Source: a virus
IMG/VR virus record: IMGVR_UViG_3300011258_000204
Coordinates: 1 to 32,819 of that record
Length of the DNA: 32,819 nt
Direction: 5' to 3' (one strand)
Shown: in pieces, positions 1,023-32,260 of the stretch
Position numbering within the stretch: position 1 is the stretch's first letter
Layout: each line of letters starts with the position of its first letter
The notes under the pieces: model-generated
Seen by the model: the letters and a program-made list of their open reading frames with translations, nothing else
What the model was told of the DNA's origin: nothing
Databases searched by the model: none
Position numbers and translations under genes: made by a program

Positions 1023-1361
1023 TTAGTTACCTAGTGAAAGTGGATTTGAGTTTATGGAATCCGTTACTGCTTTGAACGACTTATCAACTTGTTCAACAAT
1101 CTTATCTATATCTGCGTCAATCTTGTCAATAGAATTTTTGTTGTTAGTTGCATTTATTTCTACAGCAGTAATTCTTTCAACGATTGCTGAATTATCTCCA
1201 GATGGAATACTTGCAACATTATCTTCTAATACTGTCAATCTTGATGACACTTGGCTTAGCCACCAAATCCCACTCGCTGTTGGTGTTGCTATACTGATTA
1301 AAAAAATTAGAATTAGCTTTGGCGTAATCTTGATTGTTTGTGAATCCGTCTTGTCCGTCAT
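1023..1361 (-). CDS. N-terminally anchored coiled-coil protein, 112 aa
   Basis: A GGAG box lies 10 bases before the ATG, inside the preceding 547-residue frame. Residues about 14-35 (LILIFLISIATPTASGIWWL) are a membrane segment. Residues about 40-105 look like a coiled coil with many Asn, Asp and Ile, facing the periplasm if the anchor is N-in. That topology is that of i-spanins and of some tail-attached proteins, but no family is recognised. The first 143 bases overlap the 3' end of the 547-residue gene in another frame. Confidence 0.6.
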   Translation of the reverse strand: MTDKTDSQTIKITPKLILIFLISIATPTASGIWWLSQVSSRLTVLEDNVASIPSGDNSAIVERITAVEINATNNKNSIDKIDADIDKIVEQVDKSFKAVTDSINSNPLSLGN

Positions 1362-2862
1362 AAAAATCTATCTCCGTTGTCGTTAAGTCTATCGTATCTT
1401 TGTAGGTGTTTGCAAAATATTCTTTATTAAAAGATATTATGGTTGGTAAATCAAGTTCTTGGATAACTATATCAGACTTAATTTCTTGGGTAGTCTTAGT
1501 ATCAGAACTTTTTTTATTGTCCTTATTTTGCGATTCAGAGCTTTGTTTTTCTTCTGTTTTTGTTGTTTTCTTTGTTTTTACCACTTTATCTTCACTTTTT
1601 GTTGGCTCGTCTTTTATTTCTTTTTCAGTAGATTCTTCCTTTTCTTCTGATTCTTTTTCTTCGGTTGTGCTATCGTCTGATAACTCGCTTTCTTCATTTT
1701 CTCCAACAGCTTCATCATTCTCTGCTGGTGTTTCCTCTTGTTGTTCATTTTTATTCTCCTTTAAATCTTCTTCCATATTTGTTTCTTCTACTTCTGCTGG
1801 AAGTTCCTCTCTTATTTCTTCTAAGGTTTCTGGCTCTGATACAGATTCTATTTCTATGTCATTTATTTCTGGCATTTCAATATCAATGTCAATCTCTGGT
1901 AAATCCATATCTGGTATATCTGTTTCTACAGGAACTTCTGCTCCTGTATCTATAAGTGTTGGCATTTCGTTATTCAATGACACATCAGCTATCTCCATAT
2001 TCATTTGTTCAGTTCTTATATCAGAAAGCACAGATATTGATGATGTTAAATTTGCAATCTGTAAATCTTCTGGTGGATTTATGTCAATCACACCTGTAGA
2101 AATTGTATTTGCTATAGATGTTGCGTCTAATGAGCCAATTTGGACAGTTTCTACCACTTCTGGCTCTATGACTTGCTGGATAATGCTGTCAGACGCATTT
2201 ATTGGTGTTATTTCGGCTTCTTCTATGGTTTCTGCTACTACCACATCAGATAGTGTTAAAACAAGGCTTAAATTGTCTATAATTGTGCCAAATTGACCAG
2301 ACCAATCGCCTGTATCTGCTCCAGCAACATTATAGCTTAAAGATGTGATGGTAATATCAAATTCTTTGTCTACATTAATTTCATAATCTGTTGTTATCAC
2401 TCCATCATTATAATCACTTGTGTAATTGTAAGATAATACTTCTGTTTGCGTTCCATCTGTAAATGTTATGGTTGCATTAACAGGATCAAGATTGTTGGCT
2501 GTGCCTGTTTTGGTACACCAACTAGAGCCTTCATTATTGCAGCCATAAGAAGTAATAGAGCCTTCTATTTTTACCACATTTTTTGATTCATCTGATAGAT
2601 TGCTTAAATCAATAGATTGAGAAACAGAGCCACCATTTGCACCACTAAATCTTACTGTTTTATTTAAGTCGCTTCCAGAATAGTGATTGCCGTCATATGT
2701 AGCTGTACCATCTAAAGTCCAGCCATTCGTGTTGCCATCAAATGTTCCGTTATTTAGGATATTTGCTGTTTCTGTTTCCGTTGCTTGAACTGTTTGAATC
2801 GCTGTAGTTACTAACATTATAATCAGCACCCAAGTAGTCTGGGTATTTAAGTATATTCCCAT
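1219..2862 (-). CDS. Large secreted protein with beta-sandwich-like domain and acidic low-complexity region
   Basis: 547 aa. Residues about 10-27 are a signal-like hydrophobic stretch ending TVQA. Residues about 33-205 begin ILNNGTFDGNTNGWT and end with a DNLSLVL strand, the pattern of carbohydrate-binding jelly-roll modules; two Cys lie near CNNEGSSWC. Residues about 290-460 are strongly acidic Glu/Lys/Ser-rich low-complexity sequence. The C-terminal 80 residues return to ordinary composition. It overlaps the 182-residue gene upstream by 113 bases and the 112-residue gene downstream by 143 bases. It is probably an exported or virion-surface protein that binds glycans; the function is an inference. 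Confidence 0.6.
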   Translation of the reverse strand: MGIYLNTQTTWVLIIMLVTTAIQTVQATETETANILNNGTFDGNTNGWTLDGTATYDGNHYSGSDLNKTVRFSGANGGSVSQSIDLSNLSDESKNVVKIEGSITSYGCNNEGSSWCTKTGTANNLDPVNATITFTDGTQTEVLSYNYTSDYNDGVITTDYEINVDKEFDITITSLSYNVAGADTGDWSGQFGTIIDNLSLVLTLSDVVVAETIEEAEITPINASDSIIQQVIEPEVVETVQIGSLDATSIANTISTGVIDINPPEDLQIANLTSSISVLSDIRTEQMNMEIADVSLNNEMPTLIDTGAEVPVETDIPDMDLPEIDIDIEMPEINDIEIESVSEPETLEEIREELPAEVEETNMEEDLKENKNEQQEETPAENDEAVGENEESELSDDSTTEEKESEEKEESTEKEIKDEPTKSEDKVVKTKKTTKTEEKQSSESQNKDNKKSSDTKTTQEIKSDIVIQELDLPTIISFNKEYFANTYKDTIDLTTTEIDFYDGQDGFTNNQDYAKANSNFFNQYSNTNSEWDLVAKPSVIKIDSIRR

Positions 2863-7949: not shown

Positions 7950-8272
7950 TATGTTGCAACTCCTTCTTCTGCGTCAATAATTTGATACCTTTCTTTACCT
8001 TCTAGCAAAGAAGAAATATGTTGAATATTAAAAGTTTTTGAGTTGTAACTAATTCTATACTTAGCTGTAAGTGCAGAGTAATACCTTATAGTAAATCTGT
8101 AGTTGGCTCTATCTTCTATTTGATCGCCGAAAGAACTTTCTGTGCCAGATAAATTTTCTACTTTAGCCCATACTGTAGTTGCTGCTCCCCAAGATATAGA
8201 TTGTCCACCACCGCTGTCAGTTGTAGGCGACATAGATTGCAAAACAACTCTATTTCTCATTTCTCCAATCAT
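7949..8272 (-). CDS. Head closure / head-tail adaptor (Phage_H_T_join)
   Basis: 107 aa. It starts MIGEMRNRVVLQSM and continues TDSGGGQSISW and TVWAKVENLSG, then a beta-rich half with YRFTIRYYS and ending RYQIIDAEEG. This is the pattern of the SPP1 gp16-like head closure family. Its single-base overlap with the next gene and its place after the connector agree. Confidence 0.87.
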   Translation of the reverse strand: MIGEMRNRVVLQSMSPTTDSGGGQSISWGAATTVWAKVENLSGTESSFGDQIEDRANYRFTIRYYSALTAKYRISYNSKTFNIQHISSLLEGKERYQIIDAEEGVAT

Positions 8273-8949
8273 TATCCAAAGATACCCCCGTATTGCATTT
8301 GTGTTTTATATGGATTTGTTGACAATGATTTTATTTTATATGCCTGTAATAATTGTGTAGCAGATGTTGGAGCTAATACTCTTTTGCCATCAAGTAAATC
8401 TCCTCTATGCTCAAACAAATATGCAGAATATTCCAAACAAGCTGATTTAATATCATAAGGAATCGCTGTGGTTGCTCCATATCCAGCGACATACTGAATC
8501 TCTAACCCATTAGCAACTCTTAGTCCTGTAGGATAATTAGAGCCTTTTCTTAATACAATTTTTGCTGGAACACTTACATTATCTAAGTAATAGTTAGAAC
8601 TTGCAAAAGTGGTAGCATTATCTGAATCGTCATATGTTTTAATATGAGTTACACTTGCAACAGGACTTTTTGGCAACAAGATACTTCTGGTATTAAATGT
8701 TCTATCAATGCCATTATACATTCCCTCTTGTATTGGATAGTCAATATCGTTATATAAATCTAAAAATAATTGATATGTAACTGTTGTTAATGTTCTGCTA
8801 GTGTATTCTTTTACCCAATTATGTACTGCTCTTTCTATCAAAGCAACAACTGTGTCATCATCTGAACTATCAATTTTATTCCAAGCCTTAATCTCTGCTT
8901 GAGTTACTGCGTATGCTGTTTCTGCTGTGTGTACTTTTAGTCCAGCCAT
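8272..8949 (-). CDS. Head-tail connector (HK97 gp6-like)
   Basis: 225 aa. The N-terminal part (TQAEIKAWNKIDSSDDDTVVALIERA, then EYTSRTL) is the helical start of gp6-like connectors. The central strands include ILLPKSPVASVTHIKTYDD and LEIQYVAGYG, and the C-terminal helices begin AIPYDIKSACLEYSAYLFEHRG. GGGAGAG stands upstream of the ATG. It forms the ring below the portal. Here it follows a 2OG oxygenase gene and not the capsid gene, which is unusual. Confidence 0.85.
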   Translation of the reverse strand: MAGLKVHTAETAYAVTQAEIKAWNKIDSSDDDTVVALIERAVHNWVKEYTSRTLTTVTYQLFLDLYNDIDYPIQEGMYNGIDRTFNTRSILLPKSPVASVTHIKTYDDSDNATTFASSNYYLDNVSVPAKIVLRKGSNYPTGLRVANGLEIQYVAGYGATTAIPYDIKSACLEYSAYLFEHRGDLLDGKRVLAPTSATQLLQAYKIKSLSTNPYKTQMQYGGIFG

Positions 8950-9618
8950 TTATACTCTCCCTGTCCAATTATAAAAATGAGTTATACAATATCTTCCATA
9001 ACCAAACTCTATATCTTCCTTTGACTTTACTTCAGTTACTTCGTGCTGTAAATAGCTAGGGAAAAGTATCATTCTGTTTGATATACATTCTATGGTTGCA
9101 TTTCCATCTATTAGCTTTAAATTACCACCAAAGAATCTTTTTGGTTGCTTATATAACCAGATAAGACAAGTAAACTGAACTGTATCGGAATGAGATTTGT
9201 AATATTTTGCTTTATCGTAATAACTAATCATTGTTCCATCTGTATCGGTAGCAATAAAATTATTATAATGTTGTGGTAATGCGTTTTTGACAATATCGTG
9301 AAATTCAATACTTCTCTGTTTATACAAACAATTCATAATATGAGATATATTTTGCCCTTTTGGCGTATAGTAATCCCACATATGAAACCTATAAGCATTT
9401 GATTTACTTATACCATCATTATCTCTAGCAACAACAGTATTTTCTGCCTTCTCTATTTTTGCGTGTTCTGTATGAGAGTAAAAATCTAATTCTGACCAAA
9501 CTCTTTTTTCTTCTTCTTCCGTATACCAATTATCAACAATAAAATATGGACAATGTTTTATCTTATTATGAATTTTTATATCCCAATTTTGCTTTGTTTT
9601 TTCAATGATTAAACTCAT
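8950..9618 (-). CDS. 2-oxoglutarate/Fe(II)-dependent oxygenase (prolyl 4-hydroxylase-like)
   Basis: 222 aa. The metal triad is visible: H143 and D145 in YYKSHSD, and H192 in LFPSYLQHEVTEV. R209 in GYGRYCITHFYN would bind the 2OG carboxylate. FFGGNLKL is the strand typical of the P4H-like fold. The enzyme would hydroxylate a protein or small molecule using O2, Fe(II) and 2OG, in the cytoplasm (no signal peptide). It lies between a cupin-like gene and the head-tail connector, one base from each. The substrate is unknown; a virion protein such as the neighbouring adhesin is a guess. It is clearly different from the second oxygenase at 31667. Confidence 0.85.
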   Translation of the reverse strand: MSLIIEKTKQNWDIKIHNKIKHCPYFIVDNWYTEEEEKRVWSELDFYSHTEHAKIEKAENTVVARDNDGISKSNAYRFHMWDYYTPKGQNISHIMNCLYKQRSIEFHDIVKNALPQHYNNFIATDTDGTMISYYDKAKYYKSHSDTVQFTCLIWLYKQPKRFFGGNLKLIDGNATIECISNRMILFPSYLQHEVTEVKSKEDIEFGYGRYCITHFYNWTGRV

Positions 9619-9619
9619 A

Positions 9620-10039
9620 TTATGCTACCTTGCTTTTATATCTGCCATCTCGTTTGCATAATCGTTTATACGGTATAATTCTGCCTTTATATTCTACAGA
9701 AACCTCGTGCCTCTTTTTACCCATAAATTGAATTGTATACACAGGTTTTTCACAAGTTATGTAATGCAAGGTATTCCATTTAACATTATTAATCCAACGG
9801 TAATTTGTTTTAATTAAAGATTCTGAATTTGGCACTCTTACATACTCTGTATATCTACCCCACAAAAGAAATGCTATAAAATTTCCTTCGTGATCGTGCA
9901 TAACTTGTTGAACAGGTAGTATTTTAGAAAAGAAAAAAGAAAAATAAGGCGACCAAAAACCCCATCTCAATATAGTTGCGTGATTTGTTCTGGTAATAAT
10001 ATGCGACCTTCCCCAACCCCATTCAACACCGTTTGCCAT
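9620..10039 (-). CDS. Cupin-like phage protein
   Basis: 139 aa. The centre reads VMHDHEGNFIAFLLWGRYTEYV and later LHYITCEKPVYTIQFMGKKRHEVSV. This is the pattern of a small cupin-like family common in phages: HDH then a GGYTE-like strand, then a strand with W/Y-T-L-F-x-G-x-x-R. The two His of HDH could hold a metal. The N-terminus is rich in Trp and Phe. Its reading frame stops one base before the oxygenase gene begins, so the pair is probably co-translated. Activity is unknown. Confidence 0.6.
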   Translation of the reverse strand: MANGVEWGWGRSHIITRTNHATILRWGFWSPYFSFFFSKILPVQQVMHDHEGNFIAFLLWGRYTEYVRVPNSESLIKTNYRWINNVKWNTLHYITCEKPVYTIQFMGKKRHEVSVEYKGRIIPYKRLCKRDGRYKSKVA

Positions 10040-10050
10040 ATAACCTCGTC

Positions 10051-10875
10051 TTATAAATCTTTAAGTAAAACTCTGTCATACCCACCAGAGCCATCATCTT
10101 TTGCCACAAGTATATATTCATTTATATTTTCCTTGCTAACTTCTTGTGCCACTCTATTTCCGTGATTATCATACTTTGCTTGAACTATTTCTGTGCTATC
10201 TAAATTTGTTATTTCATCTGCATAATTGCAAGAATATTCAGTAAACAATCTGTCATTTTTACCATATACCATTGTTCTCTCTAAATGCGCACATAAAGTA
10301 ACTTCGGTAAGCTGCTTATCTTTATTAAATTGAAATTTAAAACAATCTTTATCTGCAACAGTTTTGCTTTTTGATATTGGCATTGTAATACCAGATTTTA
10401 AACTTTCCGCCCAAGACCAAACATTTGCGTTTGTTCCTGTAACATATACAGCTTGAGTTTGTTGTAATACAAATTCACTATTTGCCATATCGCTTATATG
10501 TTGAACAGTCAAGCCCTTGCCTAAAGTTTGCACAGGATATACTCTGTTTGGTTTATAAAATACTTCATAGCTTTTGGTAGATGTGTCCATATCATAAATA
10601 TATCTTATAAAATCCTTATCTATTAAAAGACTATTTTGCAAATCACTACTTAATTTATTATCTGCGTCAAAACTACATTGGTGTATAGAATATACATTAC
10701 TTTCCATTTCTATACCCCATATCCAAGCCTTTATAGGTAATTTTTCATTTGGAAATTTACCTTTTATCTCGTTAAAAACTTTTATTGTTTCTGGATCATC
10801 ACTACCACCCCAATAAACTCTGTTGTATACTTTTTTATCTCGTATAAATGCTCTATATAAAATAATATCACTCAT
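10051..10875 (-). CDS. Unknown protein, 274 aa, downstream of the adhesin gene
   Basis: The start is the ATG overlapping the adhesin stop (TAATG), with GGAG 10 bases upstream; a longer frame to 10917 lies in the adhesin gene. The protein begins MSDIILYRAFIRDKKVYNRVYWGG and ends GGYDRVLLKDL. It has no membrane segment or signal peptide and no motif I know. Its position directly after a gp38-like adhesin gene is where adhesin partners or fibre assembly factors are often coded. A role in receptor binding is therefore possible but unproven. Confidence 0.6.
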   Translation of the reverse strand: MSDIILYRAFIRDKKVYNRVYWGGSDDPETIKVFNEIKGKFPNEKLPIKAWIWGIEMESNVYSIHQCSFDADNKLSSDLQNSLLIDKDFIRYIYDMDTSTKSYEVFYKPNRVYPVQTLGKGLTVQHISDMANSEFVLQQTQAVYVTGTNANVWSWAESLKSGITMPISKSKTVADKDCFKFQFNKDKQLTEVTLCAHLERTMVYGKNDRLFTEYSCNYADEITNLDSTEIVQAKYDNHGNRVAQEVSKENINEYILVAKDDGSGGYDRVLLKDL

Positions 10876-11876
10876 TATGAAACTGCTCCTTGTACATTTG
10901 TGTTTCCATCTTCCCAAGTTAACGCATTACCATTTAAATTAATAGCTTTACCAGCCGCACCACCAGCGCCACCAGCGCCACCTGTAACTGAAAGACCGCT
11001 ACTGTTTCTTGAACTACCTGTAACACCAGTTTGACCAGCGCTTCCAAAAGCACCACCATTACCACCAGCGCCAGAACTTGCTGGTTGACCTGTTGCACCA
11101 GCAGAGCCACCACTACCACCATTACCCGCAGAAGTTGCACCACCAGCTTGACCAGCCTGTGTTACTGTTTGTTGTGATCCTTGTGTTGCTCCCGCTGCTC
11201 CAGCGCCACCCAAAGCCGCACCACCGCCGCCGCCGCCGCCGCCTAAGTTTTGTTGTATATCTCCCTTCATATTGTTTGCGTTATATGCGTGTCCGCCGCC
11301 ACCACCGCCACCACCGCCGCCTCTGATGTGTCCACCATTGTTTTGGATAGTTACAGGGAATTGCAAATCTATTGCGTTTCCAGCAGCGCCACCAGCAACT
11401 CCAGCTCCTTGTTGTGCCTGTTGACCACTTGCTGTTCCACCAGCGCCACCAGAGCCACCTTTAGCAATTATTTGTGCGTTGTTTATAATCTTGACTGTAT
11501 CGCCACTAGCAAATGAGCCTGTCTGTATTGCGGCTTGAGTTGTACTACCACTTGTAACATTTGCTTGAACAGTTAAAGTTACATCAGATTCTCCAGCAGA
11601 GTACGATCCACCCCTGTTTGAAAAAATATTATATGCTGATGTTGTGGCTTGTGATATTTGTAGTGCTATAGCTACTCTTGTAGATTTTGCAGCAGTATAG
11701 AATATATTAAAATTTATCGCACCAGAACTTGGTATGTCGCCACCATTACCGCTTGTTCCAGATGGTACATTATCACCACCCGCATAATATTCTGACATTG
11801 ATATTGGATTACTACCACCAAACTCTGTTTGGATTTCTGACATTGAAAGAGGACTGCCTGTACCGTGTATTGCCAT
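10875..11876 (-). CDS. Glycine-rich receptor-binding adhesin (T-even gp38-like)
   Basis: 333 aa. The N-terminus has SMSEIQTEFGGSNPISMSEYYAGG, a conserved entry motif of phage tail-tip adhesins. From about residue 138 to 325 the sequence is built of Gly-rich blocks, including two runs of eight or more Gly, separated by Ala/Ser/Thr/Gln stretches. That is the pattern of gp38-type adhesins, in which polyglycine II helices form a core and the loops between them bind the receptor. No signal or membrane segment. It follows the S74 fibre gene with a one-base overlap, so it probably caps that fibre and sets host range. Confidence 0.75.
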   Translation of the reverse strand: MAIHGTGSPLSMSEIQTEFGGSNPISMSEYYAGGDNVPSGTSGNGGDIPSSGAINFNIFYTAAKSTRVAIALQISQATTSAYNIFSNRGGSYSAGESDVTLTVQANVTSGSTTQAAIQTGSFASGDTVKIINNAQIIAKGGSGGAGGTASGQQAQQGAGVAGGAAGNAIDLQFPVTIQNNGGHIRGGGGGGGGGGHAYNANNMKGDIQQNLGGGGGGGGAALGGAGAAGATQGSQQTVTQAGQAGGATSAGNGGSGGSAGATGQPASSGAGGNGGAFGSAGQTGVTGSSRNSSGLSVTGGAGGAGGAAGKAINLNGNALTWEDGNTNVQGAVS

Positions 11877-12808
11877 TATTTACCTCTTTTTAATTCATCT
11901 ACTTCTGCCTTTAAATCTTTTATAGCTTCAATAAGTACGCCAACCATATTTCCATAAGCTACAGATTTTATTTTTTCTTCTGAACTATCTTCTTTTACAA
12001 CTTCTGGTATTATCTTCTCAACTTCTTGAGCTATAACGCCCATTTGTTTTTCACCATCAAAATCAGTTCTGTTAAAAGTAACGCCACGCATTTGACATAC
12101 TTTTTCTAATGCGTCTGGGATTGTTTCTATGTTTTCTTTTAGTCTTTCATCTGAAAAAGCAGTTACATCATTATTAAAAGTTGCTGCTCCAGCGGTTGAC
12201 ATATCTAAAGTCAATGCTGTTATTACACTACTGTTATCAACACCTTTAAAAATAATGTCTTTGTCATTAGTTACTGACTTAATTACGAAGTCAGTTGATG
12301 AATTAGTTAGCTCTGCTATAGCAACACCACCATCATTTATTTTTACATCTCCACCATCTGCGTCTAAAATAATATCTCCAGCTACATCTAATGTTAAGTC
12401 GCCACTTGATAAATCAATTTCTGTGCCATCAATAGTAATATTATCTACAACTACACCAGCATTTGCTGTAACAGCACCACTAAAACTACAAAGCCCACCA
12501 TCTGAAATGGTAATTGCGTCATCACCATCTGTGAATTCTATTAATGCTGTTCTTATAGAATCTGATTTAAAATACTCTACTGCGTCATTAGTTTGATCTA
12601 AAACTGCTATCGTAATATTTGCGTCATTATCTTCATTACGAATATATAAAGTATTAGCAGAGGTGTCATACCAAAGCTGATTTGCAAAGGTAGTTGATGG
12701 TACAGAACTACCAGAGCTTGTACTTGCTAACGCTTGTAGTGCTGAATTAATATCAGTCCTTGTGTTTGGAAAGGTCTGATTTGCTATGGTAAAGTCATTT
12801 TGGCTCAT
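11876..12808 (-). CDS. Tail fibre with C-terminal S74 chaperone domain
   Basis: 310 aa, GGAG upstream of the ATG. The N-terminus reads DFTIANQTFPNTRTDINSAL and ANQLWYDTSANTLYIRNE, typical of phage fibre attachment regions. The middle (about 90-215) is repetitive beta sequence (IDGTEIDLSSGDLTLDVAGD). Residues 219-310 are a Peptidase S74 intramolecular chaperone: SDERLKENI with the S219/K224 dyad, then MGVIAQEVEKIIPEVV and YGNMVGVLIEAIKDL. The domain guides trimer folding and then cuts itself off. Confidence 0.88.
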   Translation of the reverse strand: MSQNDFTIANQTFPNTRTDINSALQALASTSSGSSVPSTTFANQLWYDTSANTLYIRNEDNDANITIAVLDQTNDAVEYFKSDSIRTALIEFTDGDDAITISDGGLCSFSGAVTANAGVVVDNITIDGTEIDLSSGDLTLDVAGDIILDADGGDVKINDGGVAIAELTNSSTDFVIKSVTNDKDIIFKGVDNSSVITALTLDMSTAGAATFNNDVTAFSDERLKENIETIPDALEKVCQMRGVTFNRTDFDGEKQMGVIAQEVEKIIPEVVKEDSSEEKIKSVAYGNMVGVLIEAIKDLKAEVDELKRGK

Positions 12809-12847: not shown

Positions 12848-15800
12848 TTAGCTTGATTCAAGGTAGCCGTACCCTTTAGCAACATAACCAAAAGTTCTAT
12901 CTACCACCGAGCCACCAGAGTTTTTAAATTTGATGGTGAATCCTGTTGCTGATTTACTAGTTATCTCGTAAAAATCTCCTGTTGCTAAGTTATCAGCACT
13001 TATAGCTAAACCTTGTAAATCTTTAAATGCTGGGCTAAATGTTACAGCCTTTCCACCACTTGCTGTGGTACTTGCTATATCATCTACAGCAACCGTTCTG
13101 TCTGGCATATCAACAACCGCAGATAGAGCAGAAATCGCTGGTGTTGACGCAAAGTTAGTAGTTTCTAACTTAACTCTTAATTTTAAATATCTTGCTTTAT
13201 AATTACCTAGTATATAGTCTTGGTACGCTGAATATGTTGAATTGTCGTTAGAGGTAGAAATTTGGATTTTAGCACTAACATCATCTTGCTCGGTATAGTT
13301 ACCATCAAAATTACCTTCTTGGCTGTCAAATAGCCCTTCAAAGCTGTCAAACAGGCTACTTGCATTAAACCTACTGCTTGTCATTGATGTTGTAACATAA
13401 GAATTATATATCGCACCTAAATCAATAGGATTTGCATTAAACTCATAAATTCCTTGCACATTAGATTCTACTTCTCCACCATCATCAAAATTTCCTACAG
13501 CACTATCAAAATTACCTGTATGTGCGTCAAATAACTCACCTAATACTATTTGTAGAAAATTTGTGCTATCTCTATTTACTACTTCAACACCATCTTTTGT
13601 ACCAGCAAATCCTGTTGATTCTGTCGCTGTTGCAACTGCATTAAAATCATCTGATATTTGATTTCTTATAATGGCTGTTTTGGTTGATGTTTCAGAAGCT
13701 AAACCTAAAACATCTACAGCTTTAATCATATATGTCCCTGTTTGTGCTGGTAATGATATTTGATTTGTTGCCTTAGAAATATAATTAGCAACAACAGTAG
13801 CTCCAGCATAAGCTGGGCTAGATGTGGCTGGTGTATGCCTAATAATATAGTGTGATAAATCTAACTCATTATTTGCTGTCCAAGAACACACAGCTAAATT
13901 ATTTACTACATTGACAGAAAAATCAGCGACATTAGCTGGAACAGCAGTTTTTCCAATTACTTCGTGAGCAACTGATGTAAATGATGATGGCACATTAAAA
14001 GCATTAATTGACCTTGCTCTAATTTCGTAAACCATTCCATCTTCTGCGTCTATTATAGAAAACTTATTATTTCGTGATTTACCAAGTGATGTAAATTCTG
14101 TATCTGTAGATGTGTTTCTATATTCCACTTCAAATTCGTTAGTCGTTCCGCTGCTAGATACACATTCAATGTTTATAACTGTTGTTATAATGCCAGAATA
14201 AGACTTCATTATATCGCTTACAGTTAAACTAGGAGCAGATGTAGTTTGGAAAGTAGGTAAATTTGTGTTATCTAAAGCAAAACTTGTTTCTTCTGCACTC
14301 CAATTCCATACATCAGCAGATGTTTCTTGTAAAATTAAATCAATACCAAAGTCATTACTTCTGCAAGAGAATGTCCAATCTGCTACTTGAAACACTTTAC
14401 TTGACCAGCCAAGCCTTGCATTTGTTATATTAACTGTATCGCCTACCTGTAATTTAAAAGCTGTAAATTTGCAAGGCGCTTGTACTATTATTTGTTGTCT
14501 ATTTTTAAACAAAGCTACTTTAGCAATTCGTTGAGCCATTGTTGATGATGTTGTAAAAGGTAAATTAATTTCACCAAATATTGTTTCGTCATTATCTTCA
14601 CTAACAAATGTGCTTGAAGTTACCATTGGATAATCTGTTGGCTGCCAATTACTTTCTGGACTAGTAAATACACCTTTTGCTGTATTAAATAAATCTCTCC
14701 TTGATTGTTTTGTGTTTATAGATATACCACCTCGCAAGTCATCTTCATCAAGTGTTATTGTTGGTGCAACATATTTACCACCCGATAGATTAAACTTACC
14801 ATTCGTGTAGCTTAAAATTCCAAGCATTGATCCCGTTATACTGTCTATTGCGTTCATTGGTTGTATATCAGAAGTTACAACACCATTACATTCGTATCTG
14901 TTTTCTGTACCACCAGCGGCTAAAGTAATATCTTCATCACATATATTTGCAACAGTTGTAAAAGATGTTGTGTCAATATTTGCTGTTGGTGTTGCTAACC
15001 CAAATCTTGTATCGCTTAAATAATCATATAAAACTAAAGCTGGATTGTTACTATAAGCTGTAGAGCCTGTTCTAAAATCTAATAACTTTTTGCCTTTTAT
15101 TTCAGCAGATACATTTGGTATTCCATTTGGAAAAACACTTTGGTCGTATTTTAGCGCAACATACAAATAAGCAATTCCAGATAACTTGTGATTTTCTGTC
15201 CATTGAGCTACTTCTTCTACCAAATCTCTGTCCGCTAATTGATCGTCTGCTCCTAAATGTTTTTTTACTCTAACTGTTAATTCAGAACTATCTGTAAATT
15301 TATGTGTTGCTATTACGGCATAATTTGTTGTTGTTGTTGTTCCAGCTAAATATGGAAGTGGAGTATTTGGGTTATCTCTATATGGTGCAATTCTTGATTG
15401 TGCGCCAAATGCAGCAGCAAAAGATATTGCAGTTGCTCTTACATCAGTTTTTAATCCTTGCGAAATAGTAACTGTTAATGTATGTCTTGTTCCAGAGGCA
15501 GAAGAACTGCCGCCTGTTGAAATTCCATAATCAAAACCATTAATATTCAAAGTATCAGCTGTTGATATACTAAAAGCAGTATCAGATACTAATGTAACTT
15601 GTGTAATGCCTTTAACAATTCCTTTACCATTGACAACTGCATTACCACCAAAAGGTAATGATTGATTTACAGTAACATCTTCATATTCTGATATAACCAA
15701 AGGTCTTGATGATGTGGTAAATCTTGATTCTGTTGCGTACTTAGAGGGAGAAGTTACCTTAAATCTGGTAATACCATTTGCGTCTGTACCCGCACTTGCA

Positions 15801-16177
15801 AGAGTAAGTTCTTCATCATTAAAATAAACTTTATCAATAGATTGTATTTCGTGTGAAGCTAAAGACAATATCATATGCAAGGTTTGGTTATTTGCTGTAG
15901 ATTCCATATATAATAATGTTCCAGATTTTTTTACCTCACCATATACAATGTCCCTCGTTGATAAAGGCTGCTTTATCATTTCAGTTCTTTTTTGTAATCC
16001 AAGCGGTGCAGCCATTTTTGGCTGCGAAACCAAGACTTTTGTTAAACCCATAGCAACAGCAGAAGATACTGCAAAATTAACTGCTTTTGCTGTAAAGCCC
16101 GTCAAAGAAGCGGAAGCCCAGCCACCTGTATAAATCGCTGCTGCTGTTATTGCTAGTTGTCTTATGCTACTACCCAT
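12848..16177 (-). CDS. Tail tip / baseplate hub protein (gpJ-like)
   Basis: 1109 aa, the largest gene. The N-terminal 50 residues are Ala-rich and hydrophobic. Residues about 55-300 (QPLSTRDIVYGEVKKSG, then LHMILSLASHEIQSIDKVYFND) match the start of lambda gpJ / Phage-tail_3 hub proteins. LVLYDYLSDTRFGL at about 370 and the SPESNWQP stretch also belong to this family. Residues about 655-860 look like fibronectin type III modules (EYRNTSTDTEFTS, then SWTANNELDLSHYIIRH). The C-terminal 250 residues are beta-rich and probably hold fibres. Its ATG overlaps the stop of the HlyC-like gene by one base. Confidence 0.85.
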   Translation of the reverse strand: MGSSIRQLAITAAAIYTGGWASASLTGFTAKAVNFAVSSAVAMGLTKVLVSQPKMAAPLGLQKRTEMIKQPLSTRDIVYGEVKKSGTLLYMESTANNQTLHMILSLASHEIQSIDKVYFNDEELTLASAGTDANGITRFKVTSPSKYATESRFTTSSRPLVISEYEDVTVNQSLPFGGNAVVNGKGIVKGITQVTLVSDTAFSISTADTLNINGFDYGISTGGSSSASGTRHTLTVTISQGLKTDVRATAISFAAAFGAQSRIAPYRDNPNTPLPYLAGTTTTTNYAVIATHKFTDSSELTVRVKKHLGADDQLADRDLVEEVAQWTENHKLSGIAYLYVALKYDQSVFPNGIPNVSAEIKGKKLLDFRTGSTAYSNNPALVLYDYLSDTRFGLATPTANIDTTSFTTVANICDEDITLAAGGTENRYECNGVVTSDIQPMNAIDSITGSMLGILSYTNGKFNLSGGKYVAPTITLDEDDLRGGISINTKQSRRDLFNTAKGVFTSPESNWQPTDYPMVTSSTFVSEDNDETIFGEINLPFTTSSTMAQRIAKVALFKNRQQIIVQAPCKFTAFKLQVGDTVNITNARLGWSSKVFQVADWTFSCRSNDFGIDLILQETSADVWNWSAEETSFALDNTNLPTFQTTSAPSLTVSDIMKSYSGIITTVINIECVSSSGTTNEFEVEYRNTSTDTEFTSLGKSRNNKFSIIDAEDGMVYEIRARSINAFNVPSSFTSVAHEVIGKTAVPANVADFSVNVVNNLAVCSWTANNELDLSHYIIRHTPATSSPAYAGATVVANYISKATNQISLPAQTGTYMIKAVDVLGLASETSTKTAIIRNQISDDFNAVATATESTGFAGTKDGVEVVNRDSTNFLQIVLGELFDAHTGNFDSAVGNFDDGGEVESNVQGIYEFNANPIDLGAIYNSYVTTSMTSSRFNASSLFDSFEGLFDSQEGNFDGNYTEQDDVSAKIQISTSNDNSTYSAYQDYILGNYKARYLKLRVKLETTNFASTPAISALSAVVDMPDRTVAVDDIASTTASGGKAVTFSPAFKDLQGLAISADNLATGDFYEITSKSATGFTIKFKNSGGSVVDRTFGYVAKGYGYLESS

Positions 16178-20999: not shown

Positions 21000-22736
21000 T
21001 CACAAATTTTTTAAAACAGTATTTTCGTAGAAATCTATCCAATCTTTACTTATTTTATTTTTAAAGCCCATATTATAAAGTGCAAAATTTTCAGCAAACC
21101 ATTCTTTAGAGTTGTATGATGAATAGCCTGTTGGATATAGTTTACTGACCCCATCTTGTCTTATAATTTTATTATCTTTTCTAACTGCTTTATTAAAAAC
21201 AGTATTTAATTCATCTTCTATATTATTTAAAGTTCCAGCTATTCTTGTTTGTTGATGAATATGATGACCCATCTCGTGATATATTGTTATTCTTTTCATA
21301 TCTAAAGATAAATCTAGTTTTTCTGCTTTAGATAAACCTTTTATTCTTCTACCCTTTAATAAATAATAAGCTGAACTAAATGGAATTTCTCTATTGCTTT
21401 TTATTCCTTGTCTTTTACCAAATGCTTGAGTAGTTCCACCTAATCTTGTATTTCCTATCTGATAATCACTTTGTTTTGTAACAATATAATTTTCGTTATC
21501 TTCTGCTCCTTTAATTAAGGTATATTTACTTCCTTCACCTTTTATGAGGTCTTTGTTAATTGATAAACCACCATCACCCATAGAAGCATTTGCTTTTCTT
21601 TTTCCTACTGATGATGTTCTTCTTAATTTTGGAAGTTTATGTTTAACTGCTAATTGGTTAGCTTCCTCTAAAAGAATATTAATCTCTGTCAATTCTCTTT
21701 CATTCCAATCATTAAAATAGTATTCACCATCTTTAAAGCGACCACCATATTGGTCAGGCAAATACTGTTTATATTCATCTGAATTGGTAAATCCTTGCGT
21801 AGAATTTAATTTGACATCTGCTTGTAATTCTTTTTTATTTTTTGTAACAACTATTGCAGAGCCTTTTATTGGATTCAGTAATGATGTTGCGTTTCTTTCA
21901 GCAACTACCTCTGGAATATCCTCTACTGGCACTACAGGACTATCTGGCTGTGGTGTAGCTCCAATCACTTCATCTTCCATATCATAAGTAAGCGTCATAC
22001 ATCTGCAATTAATTACATTTAATGCGCCACCATTCATATCTCCCGTGTAATCCATATATTTAGGTATTGATCCGCCACCCGAAATTGGAGTATATACTTC
22101 AAATTTTTCATCAATAGCTATAGCTTTTTTTGTATTCATTTGTTTATGCCAATCTCTAGTTCTAACATCTCTAGCACTAATCCATTTTTTAACAGGATTT
22201 TTAAAACCCATTTGTTTTGACATTTCAAACCTTCCATAATTCATAGCAGAATGTGTTTCAGTCCTAGCAATCATAGTGGCTCTGTAGGGCTTAAATGCGT
22301 TATTTTGGCGTATATCTTTGGATATGGTAGGAATGGATTCCCCGTCAGCAATACCCTTTCTAATTGACTTTCTAATACTTTGTTTTGTTGTTTCTGTTAC
22401 TTGTGTAACTTTTGTTGCTGCTTCTTGTTGAATATAACTCGCAACAATTACATCTATTTTATCTTCTTGTTTAGTTTCTCTCTGCTTAATAAGCCTATTG
22501 CTGGTAGCTGTTATAACAGTTCTATAATGAGATGATAATATTTTATAGAAATCATTTGAAAAATCTTCTAAAAAGAAATAATACATATCTTCATATTTAA
22601 GATATTCTTTTTCTGCTTGTCTGGCTGTTTTTCTAAATAACTTCTTTACCTTTGCATTTAAACTTTTAGATAAATTAAGATACAATTTAATTTGTTCTTT
22701 GTACTCTTTATTTAGATTAATCTTAATCTTTGCCAT
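21000..22736 (-). CDS. MuF head protein fused to a C-terminal zincin-like metallopeptidase domain
   Basis: 578 aa. Residues about 95-255 are the MuF / SPP1 gp7 domain: TMIARTETHSAMNYGR, KKWISARDVRTRDWHK, and NVINCRCMTLTY. A Pro-rich linker follows (about 262-285, PQPDSPVVPVED). The last 290 residues are a separate domain with HEMGH (487-491) and E545/E549 in EWFAENF, the HExxH plus downstream Glu pattern of zincins. MuF proteins sit in the head near the portal and can carry toxin domains into the cell. The ATG overlaps the endolysin stop (TAATG). The domain calls are firm; injection is inferred. Confidence 0.85.
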   Translation of the reverse strand: MAKIKINLNKEYKEQIKLYLNLSKSLNAKVKKLFRKTARQAEKEYLKYEDMYYFFLEDFSNDFYKILSSHYRTVITATSNRLIKQRETKQEDKIDVIVASYIQQEAATKVTQVTETTKQSIRKSIRKGIADGESIPTISKDIRQNNAFKPYRATMIARTETHSAMNYGRFEMSKQMGFKNPVKKWISARDVRTRDWHKQMNTKKAIAIDEKFEVYTPISGGGSIPKYMDYTGDMNGGALNVINCRCMTLTYDMEDEVIGATPQPDSPVVPVEDIPEVVAERNATSLLNPIKGSAIVVTKNKKELQADVKLNSTQGFTNSDEYKQYLPDQYGGRFKDGEYYFNDWNERELTEINILLEEANQLAVKHKLPKLRRTSSVGKRKANASMGDGGLSINKDLIKGEGSKYTLIKGAEDNENYIVTKQSDYQIGNTRLGGTTQAFGKRQGIKSNREIPFSSAYYLLKGRRIKGLSKAEKLDLSLDMKRITIYHEMGHHIHQQTRIAGTLNNIEDELNTVFNKAVRKDNKIIRQDGVSKLYPTGYSSYNSKEWFAENFALYNMGFKNKISKDWIDFYENTVLKNL

Positions 22737-23137
22737 TAAGTTATTATTTCAAAATGCACAGCGTCTATAAAGTTCATATCCCTATTTAATTTGAAATCTC
22801 CTGTAACCCAACTACCACCCCATCTTATCTTAACATTTAATATTTCGGACACTTCACCCACTACTCCAGCTACAGCTTCATAATATTCTAAATCCCAAGT
22901 AACTTTGCCATTGTTATAACAGACAATATCAACAGCCTTGCCTTGACAATGAAGTGATTTAGTTCCTACCTTACTTAGCCCATCTATTTTTAGCTGCTCT
23001 GCTCTCTCTAGGCTTCTCATTCCTTCGGTAATCCCAAAATCTATAGGTGTCAGTTTAATTGCTTCCATCATAACCAGCTTTAAGTCTGGGTTTACAGTAT
23101 CTAATTTTTCTAATGATCCACTTCCAAATTTAAACAT
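22736..23137 (-). CDS. Endolysin, M15 L-alanyl-D-glutamate-type peptidase
   Basis: 133 aa. Zinc ligands H63 and D70 in SLHCQGKAVD (the SxHxxGxAxD motif) and H128 in AVHFEI are visible, with WGGSW between them. This is the VanY/M15 family of T5-type endolysins, which cut the peptide of peptidoglycan. It has no signal peptide, so it needs a holin. It lies between the portal and MuF genes, about 20 kb from the holin-like gene. Confidence 0.87.
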   Translation of the reverse strand: MFKFGSGSLEKLDTVNPDLKLVMMEAIKLTPIDFGITEGMRSLERAEQLKIDGLSKVGTKSLHCQGKAVDIVCYNNGKVTWDLEYYEAVAGVVGEVSEILNVKIRWGGSWVTGDFKLNRDMNFIDAVHFEIIT

Positions 23138-31666: not shown

Positions 31667-32260
31667 GTGGGTAAGTTAAAACATTTAAAACAAGAATTTT
31701 TTGCAGATAATATACTTTACGATCCAAACCAAGATTCAGAATATGGAATTGTCCCTTGTGAGATGAATCCAGAAATGAGTACATTAGTTTTAAAAGAAGC
31801 ATTTGAATATGGAGAAGAAGTACAAACATCAACAACAGATAGTAATTTTTCAAATTTAAGAAAAGTTGATTGTTGGCGCTTGAATCAGAAAAAAAGCATT
31901 ACAGCAGAATTAGTAAGCCACGCTTTAATTGATATTAATAAAACATTTAATTATAGATTAAGCGGAATCCAAGATATTCAATATTTGGAATATTCAGAAG
32001 GTTGCAAATACGACTGGCACTCTGACATTGGCAGCGGCGTTTCTAGTATGCGTAAGATTTCAATATCTTGGGTTTTAAATGAAGGCTTTACAGGCGGCGA
32101 TCTTCAATTCTTTGGTGATGGCGGCGAAATTATGACATATAACTCTGTACCAAATAAGCTGGTAGCATTTACTTCGTTTCTTAACCACCGCATAACCCCT
32201 GTTACTAACGGAGTTCGCAAGGTTATTGTGGCTTGGTGTTTTGGCGAAAGCTGGAGATAA
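31667..32260 (+). CDS. 2-oxoglutarate/Fe(II)-dependent oxygenase (P4H-like), GTG start
   Basis: 197 aa. AAAGGAG lies 5 bases before a GTG, which I take as start. H118 and D120 in YDWHSD, H174 in FLNHRITPV and R184 in GVRKVIVAWCFG form the iron and 2OG sites, and FTGGDLQFF is the fold-typical strand. It is compact and cytoplasmic, like the oxygenases common in marine phages. Substrate unknown. It sits alone between a terminator and a fresh promoter in the early unit. It differs clearly from the enzyme at 8950, so this is not a recent duplication. Confidence 0.87.
   Translation: MGKLKHLKQEFFADNILYDPNQDSEYGIVPCEMNPEMSTLVLKEAFEYGEEVQTSTTDSNFSNLRKVDCWRLNQKKSITAELVSHALIDINKTFNYRLSGIQDIQYLEYSEGCKYDWHSDIGSGVSSMRKISISWVLNEGFTGGDLQFFGDGGEIMTYNSVPNKLVAFTSFLNHRITPVTNGVRKVIVAWCFGESWR

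Follow-up and report, generated by a model that had tools for sequence, protein, structure and literature searches.

The gp38 proteins of T2/S16-like phages are small proteins encoded after the fibre gene, and their glycine-rich motifs form a polyglycine II sandwich (PMC6851490, PMC12892980). Polyglycine II helices are similar to the helices of polyproline II type found in collagen (PMC6851490); by this analogy, a prolyl 4-hydroxylase (P4H)-like enzyme would be a reasonable partner for such an adhesin. For the 2OG oxygenases and PrnA-type halogenases, which abound in marine phages, the roles proposed in print comprise host nitrogen sensing, DNA repair and antibiotic protection, or are left open (PMC3037559, PMC9602691, PMC2984593). 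In the open-access literature searched, we found neither a paper tying 2OG oxygenase or halogenase genes to adhesins nor a report of hydroxylation or prenylation of a phage adhesin.

Two described phages resemble the locus analyzed here. Pelagibacter phage Mosig (EXVC030M) carries the gene of the Gly-rich, fibre-like protein Mosig_00062, an oxygenase-type run and then neck genes, and cyanophage S-CAM1 has 2OG genes after its tail fibre. However, the cupin and the 274-aa protein described below have no sequence homolog in either phage.

Anatomy of the locus

The window, i.e. the whole stretch of 32,819 nucleotides that was analyzed, is a 32.8-kb contig of an uncultured virus with late genes of siphovirus type. 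Positions 8950 to 10875 are filled almost gap-free by three minus-strand open reading frames of 274, 139 and 222 codons, flanked by the gene of a polyglycine-rich adhesin on one side and by head-tail connector genes on the other. The order of transcription is as follows:

11876-12808, minus strand: fibre with a Peptidase_S74 intramolecular chaperone domain (Pfam E = 5e-17), directly upstream of the adhesin
10875-11876, minus strand: polyglycine-rich, gp38-like adhesin, 333 aa (phrog_11439, tail fibre, E = 2e-14; phrog_2056, 'host specificity', E = 2e-4)
10051-10875, minus strand: 274-aa protein family (ORF, alignments, AlphaFold model, Foldseek)
9620-10039, minus strand: small cupin by predicted fold, 139 aa (alignment, AF2 model, Foldseek against the PDB)
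8950-9618, minus strand: 2OG-Fe(II) oxygenase, P4H-like, PF13640, 222 aa (Pfam E = 1.8e-9, alignment of 22 relatives)
8272-8949, minus strand: head-tail connector (phrog_442, head-tail adaptor, E = 9e-20), the first gene after the cassette and outside it

The successive gaps between the adhesin, 274-aa, cupin, oxygenase and connector genes are -1, 11, 1 and 0 nt. The ATG of the 274-aa gene overlaps the adhesin stop codon (TAATG), and the connector gene starts at the base right after the oxygenase gene. With such gaps, the block looks translationally coupled. A Phage_HCP match (E = 2e-18) also lies downstream of the cassette. An earlier note on this DNA had described oxygenase, cupin-like and 274-residue genes packed between an adhesin and neck genes, and the ORFs, gaps and profile matches bear out this description.

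Several other genes of the window were recorded. Together with the fibres and the adhesin, the tail-tip J protein (12848-16177, minus strand) is flanked by capsid genes on one side and neck genes on the other, an arrangement that is unusual among siphoviruses. An endolysin gene (22736-23137, minus strand) stands between portal and head-morphogenesis genes, apart from a usual lysis cassette. A 547-aa ORF without PHROG match (1219-2862, minus strand) resembles in parts ORFs near the cassette in relatives including L010, L025 and L026 and may encode a further tail protein that is open to exchange. A second 2OG-Fe(II) oxygenase (31667-32260, plus strand) is located in the opposite-strand DNA-metabolism arm; the related record L002 likewise has one 2OG-Fe(II) oxygenase away from the adhesin.

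The adhesin and the three cassette proteins

The adhesin contains multiple glycine-rich motifs with variable segments and is encoded after a fibre gene, as seen in its sequence and alignments; it thereby has the architecture of a gp38-like polyglycine II (PGII) protein. Its earlier designation as gp38-like holds for this architecture and not for homology, as no match at E ≤ 0.1 was obtained against PDB sequences including the solved gp38 (6F45 and relatives). With gp38 of T2/S16-like phages it would share a role in host range, and it differs from gp38 in having enzyme genes behind its gene. The C-terminus, ALTWEDGNTNVQGAVS, is of the EDG subtype, which is linked to the oxygenase.

The oxygenase reaches 38.9 bits against PF13640, exceeding the curated cut-off of 27. 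In an alignment of 22 relatives, H143, D145 and H192 occur without exception and R209 in at least 90%, i.e. the H-x-D...H iron triad and the basic residue for 2OG are present. Both the score and the intact site confirm the assignment as P4H-like made in the earlier note. The triad and the 2OG-binding residue are shared with the PF13640 superfamily (prolyl 4-hydroxylase-like; PKHD-type and P4H, PDB 3dkq and 6iuq), whereas sequence matches in the PDB are weak (best E = 7e-4) and the family of the window oxygenase is distinguished by its fixed linkage to polyglycine adhesins. Relatives in named phages amount to 125 records, nearly all from cyanophages and below 60% identity; the best named-phage relative belongs to Pelagibacter phage Mosig (40%).

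The 139-aa protein had been called cupin-like, and this is supported by its predicted fold, the sequence match alone being weak (phrog_4786, 'cysteine dioxygenase', 1e-6). H48-x-H50 and H92 are invariant among 22 diverse members; motif 1 has no Glu at the usual place, a 3-His, cysteine-dioxygenase-like arrangement. With an AF2 model of pLDDT 86.8, the top Foldseek matches in the PDB were cupins, with E ≤ 3e-4 for all 50 matches listed, and the cysteine dioxygenase (CDO) of B. subtilis gave one of the best superpositions (TM 0.55-0.59, rmsd about 3 Å). By this model, the protein is predicted to be a cupin with a 3-His metal site. It shares the fold, the three conserved His and the replaced motif 1 Glu with B. 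subtilis YubC (3eqe, 4qm9), small cupins and phrog_4786. In contrast to cysteine dioxygenase, none of the 22 members matched a CDO family in Pfam, and many cupins score alike in Foldseek. Cupin folds are common; therefore, the predicted fold does not fix the reaction.

No sequence match for the 274-aa family was found in Pfam, PHROGs, NCBIfam (26 members tested) or the PDB, and neither this protein nor the cupin had a match among named phages. IMG/VR holds 117 relatives. The sole match in a bacterial genome, on a 7.7-kb contig in a Maricaulis MAG (L156), is probably a binned phage contig and gives a weak hint to the host. Residues R8, N60, C67, Y94, K101, E104, Y107, E213 and N224 are invariant; many of them are polar and situated in strands (R8, C67, Y94, K101, E104, E213), where they look like residues of an enzyme cavity. 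The AlphaFold model (pLDDT 90.5, pTM 0.88) predicts a beta-rich fold. Foldseek against the PDB placed PT-barrel prenyltransferases (AmbP3, FamD1, PatF) at all of ranks 1-7, with a best E of 4.7e-3 and a probability of 0.98; the superposition is weak (TM 0.34-0.37, rmsd about 8 Å). A relationship to the PT-barrel (ABBA) prenyltransferases is thus a lead, not an assignment: the model has the repeated beta-beta-alpha pattern of AmbP3, FamD1, PatF and DciF, whereas the family lacks sequence similarity to these enzymes and a TIGR04445 match. In 398 Pseudomonadota genomes, the PT-barrel families TIGR04445 and PF11468 gave no match, controls included. A 329-aa protein of cyanophage S-CAM1 encoded behind fibre and 2OG genes (SXBG_00061, phrog_4851, L159:2040-3029) was considered as a counterpart and rejected; picked only for having the length of a weak Foldseek match of the 274-aa model, it is unrelated by sequence.

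Conserved linkage of the cassette to polyglycine adhesins

Separate scans seeded with the oxygenase, the cupin, the 274-aa protein and the adhesin all returned the order adhesin, 274-aa protein and cupin, with or without the oxygenase next. This order is kept in more than 100 IMG/VR loci on several genome backbones, and because of this recurrence it is not due to chance. The genes that follow the cassette vary and include siphovirus neck genes (L002, as in the window), a P22-gp10-like tail protein, holin-endolysin and others. Hence, the cassette travels between genome backbones together with the adhesin. The earlier note had asked whether the cassette is conserved beside adhesins, and it is; the finding named there as refuting, a pair that stands beside unrelated genes in most relatives, did not occur. 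The oxygenase-cupin pair of the note, taken as a unit, separates into two parts, as the cupin and the 274-aa protein nearly always follow this adhesin type and the oxygenase is optional.

The composition of the cassette varies among relatives. The 274-aa and cupin genes are duplicated in L019, L024 and L153; L020 belongs with these three, in which duplicated genes stand behind the adhesin together with more 2OG genes and a short-chain dehydrogenase. L076 and its relatives carry a desaturase and extra oxygenases. An ORF fusing a 'ferrochelatase'-labelled part, where the label probably stands for a misannotated oxygenase, with a 2OG part (PHROG matches) is inserted between the 274-aa and cupin genes in L038 (3463-4629) and L146 (5530-6705). 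The cupin is missing in L039-L042, and certain adhesins lack either the oxygenase or the cassette (L039-L042, L192, L193). Some relatives add an FA_desaturase-family gene, a short-chain dehydrogenase (SDR) or a glycosyltransferase in or near the slot, and one a sulfotransferase-like gene.

The oxygenase is strongly linked to polyglycine-rich genes. Of 34 non-redundant loci from the oxygenase family, 27 carry a polyglycine-rich ORF in the same orientation no more than 5.5 kb upstream, and none carries one downstream; the remaining sequence of these loci contained 3 such ORFs in 186 kb. The linkage is also seen where the 274-aa gene is absent (22 of 29 such loci among the 34). No such gene precedes the oxygenase over this distance in L044-L047, which come from cyanophages and one marine virus, nor in L256, L262 and L285. 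Across 26 whole records (870 kb), 30 of 34 PF13640 matches lay no further than 7 kb behind an adhesin and in its orientation, a zone in which 20% were expected; several of these records are near-duplicates, which makes the binomial p-values too small. Among records that had not been fetched through the oxygenase, the fraction in this zone was 19 of 20.

Furthermore, oxygenase presence segregates with the adhesin subtype. The adhesin ends in [YWF]EDGxxN[VI]QGAVS or a sequence near it in 21 of 22 cassette contigs with oxygenase and in 0 of 24 without. Each of three backbones includes both oxygenase-bearing and oxygenase-free states, matching the adhesin subtype. Oxygenase presence requires one change on the tree of the adhesin N-terminus, three on that of the 274-aa protein and four on that of the cupin, which suggests that the two middle genes were exchanged and the adhesin-oxygenase pair was kept. 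Thus, the adhesin subtype seems to be a better guide to oxygenase presence than the two middle genes are; this supports the link without proving it, as the tree test contains a single change on the adhesin tree and tests on independent pairs are far too small for significance. With only one change, co-travel of adhesin and oxygenase can arise from physical linkage alone.

The earlier note had suggested modification of a virion protein or of a host surface target and not DNA metabolism. Conservation as strong and specific as this sustains coupling to the adhesin over DNA metabolism; the two kinds of target are weighed below.

What tells adhesins with an oxygenase from those without is a set of positions that includes Q104, K129, Q135, Q178, N180, Q243, E322, D323, G324, N327 and Q329 and contains no proline. 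In the oxygenase-bearing group the Gly-rich domain is Gln-rich (7.9% vs 1.7%) and Pro-poor. Proline as the target is therefore disfavoured for the EDG subtype, and the oxygenase of the window phage probably does not act mainly on proline, judged from these residues. Adhesins before other oxygenase arrays contain 7-10% Pro, and how much proline the Gly-rich domain has increases with how many oxygenases follow and of which type, a trend that speaks for tailoring. This contrast between Pro and Gln suggests that different oxygenases may act on different residues. These composition differences are correlative and, lying within one phylogeny, confounded.

Possible functions and distribution in other phages

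On balance, we lean slightly towards an adhesin-tailoring cassette that acts post-translationally. A polyglycine-rich tip adhesin would be made together with enzymes acting on it after translation. Hydroxylation, or some other oxidation, of adhesin side chains would fall to the 2OG-Fe(II) oxygenase; the most plausible sites are in the Gly-rich (PGII) domain or in the conserved EDGxxNxQG segment at the C-terminus. Adhesins of the same lineage would also be acted on by the cupin, possibly a metal-dependent dioxygenase, and by the 274-aa protein, possibly a PT-barrel-like transferase. Modification would then adjust how stable the host-recognition tip is or how specific it is for its receptor. It is possible, if somewhat unlikely, that the cupin and the 274-aa protein are instead structural proteins or chaperones without enzyme activity, e.g. 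a tip subunit or an assembly factor, which would be compatible with tailoring by the oxygenase only. They almost always accompany this adhesin type, even without oxygenase, and the PT-barrel similarity is weak (TM 0.37); on the other hand, the invariant polar strand residues of the 274-aa protein and the invariant His triad of the cupin look like active sites.

Phage tail-fibre regions are recombination hot spots, and the slot behind the adhesin could simply be one where unrelated genes hitch-hike as morons when the adhesin is swapped. Its widely varying content (oxygenases, desaturase, SDR, halogenase or nothing) and the single co-segregation event on the adhesin tree agree with this. We nevertheless judge it unlikely: the genes in the slot favour a single type of chemistry, very different phages have the same oxygenase family behind polyglycine genes, and the pairing of adhesin subtype with oxygenase outlasted the exchange of the two middle genes. 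Alternatively, the enzymes might alter the host envelope during infection, e.g. to block superinfection or re-adsorption of progeny. If they act on the receptor, a coupling to the adhesin type is to be expected, and the desaturase, SDR, glycosyltransferase and sulfotransferase-like genes of relatives fit envelope chemistry equally; yet the cassette sits in the late structural operon and, in many relatives with the oxygenase, the slot contains neither a lipid nor a sugar gene, so that we regard this as quite improbable. The least probable reading, to which we give very little credence, is a metabolic one in which the oxygenase modulates the 2-oxoglutarate/nitrogen state of the host or takes part in DNA repair. 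Such roles were proposed for cyanophage 2OG oxygenases (PMC3037559; repeated in PMC9602691), and the other 2OG gene of the window lies in the DNA-metabolism arm, but the position behind polyglycine adhesins and the correlation with the adhesin subtype would be left unexplained.

The slot behind polyglycine genes is shared by enzymes of polypeptide-tailoring type, namely several 2OG oxygenases and the tryptophan-halogenase family. Distant phages have runs of two to five oxygenase-type genes there, and 14 of 17 tryptophan-halogenase family genes (PF04820), some of them near-duplicates, have a polyglycine ORF 0.6-4.1 kb upstream; the PF04820 matches have E ≤ 3e-95 in the four tested. By analogy with modified peptide natural products, marine phages might possess tailoring clusters in which a polyglycine adhesin is decorated by 2OG oxygenases, cupins, PT-barrel transferases and flavin halogenases to give chemically diversified receptor-binding tips; we consider this generalisation doubtful. 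The fixed link to polyglycine adhesins offers a concrete alternative purpose for the oxygenases and halogenases of marine phages, chemical modification of the host-recognition tip, and makes the old question of their role directly testable in the cultured Pelagibacter phage Mosig. If adhesin tailoring is true, the setting of host range gains a layer beyond sequence variation.

Tryptophan-halogenase family genes adjoin relatives of the oxygenase at L242:6669-8135, L265:5731-7275, L239:4461-6008 and L285:3807-5279. Additionally, in L200-L203, L212, L215-L217 and L219 distant adhesins with a proline-rich Gly-rich domain are followed by a gene of about 112 aa, a 157-168-aa protein and three to five consecutive oxygenase-like genes.
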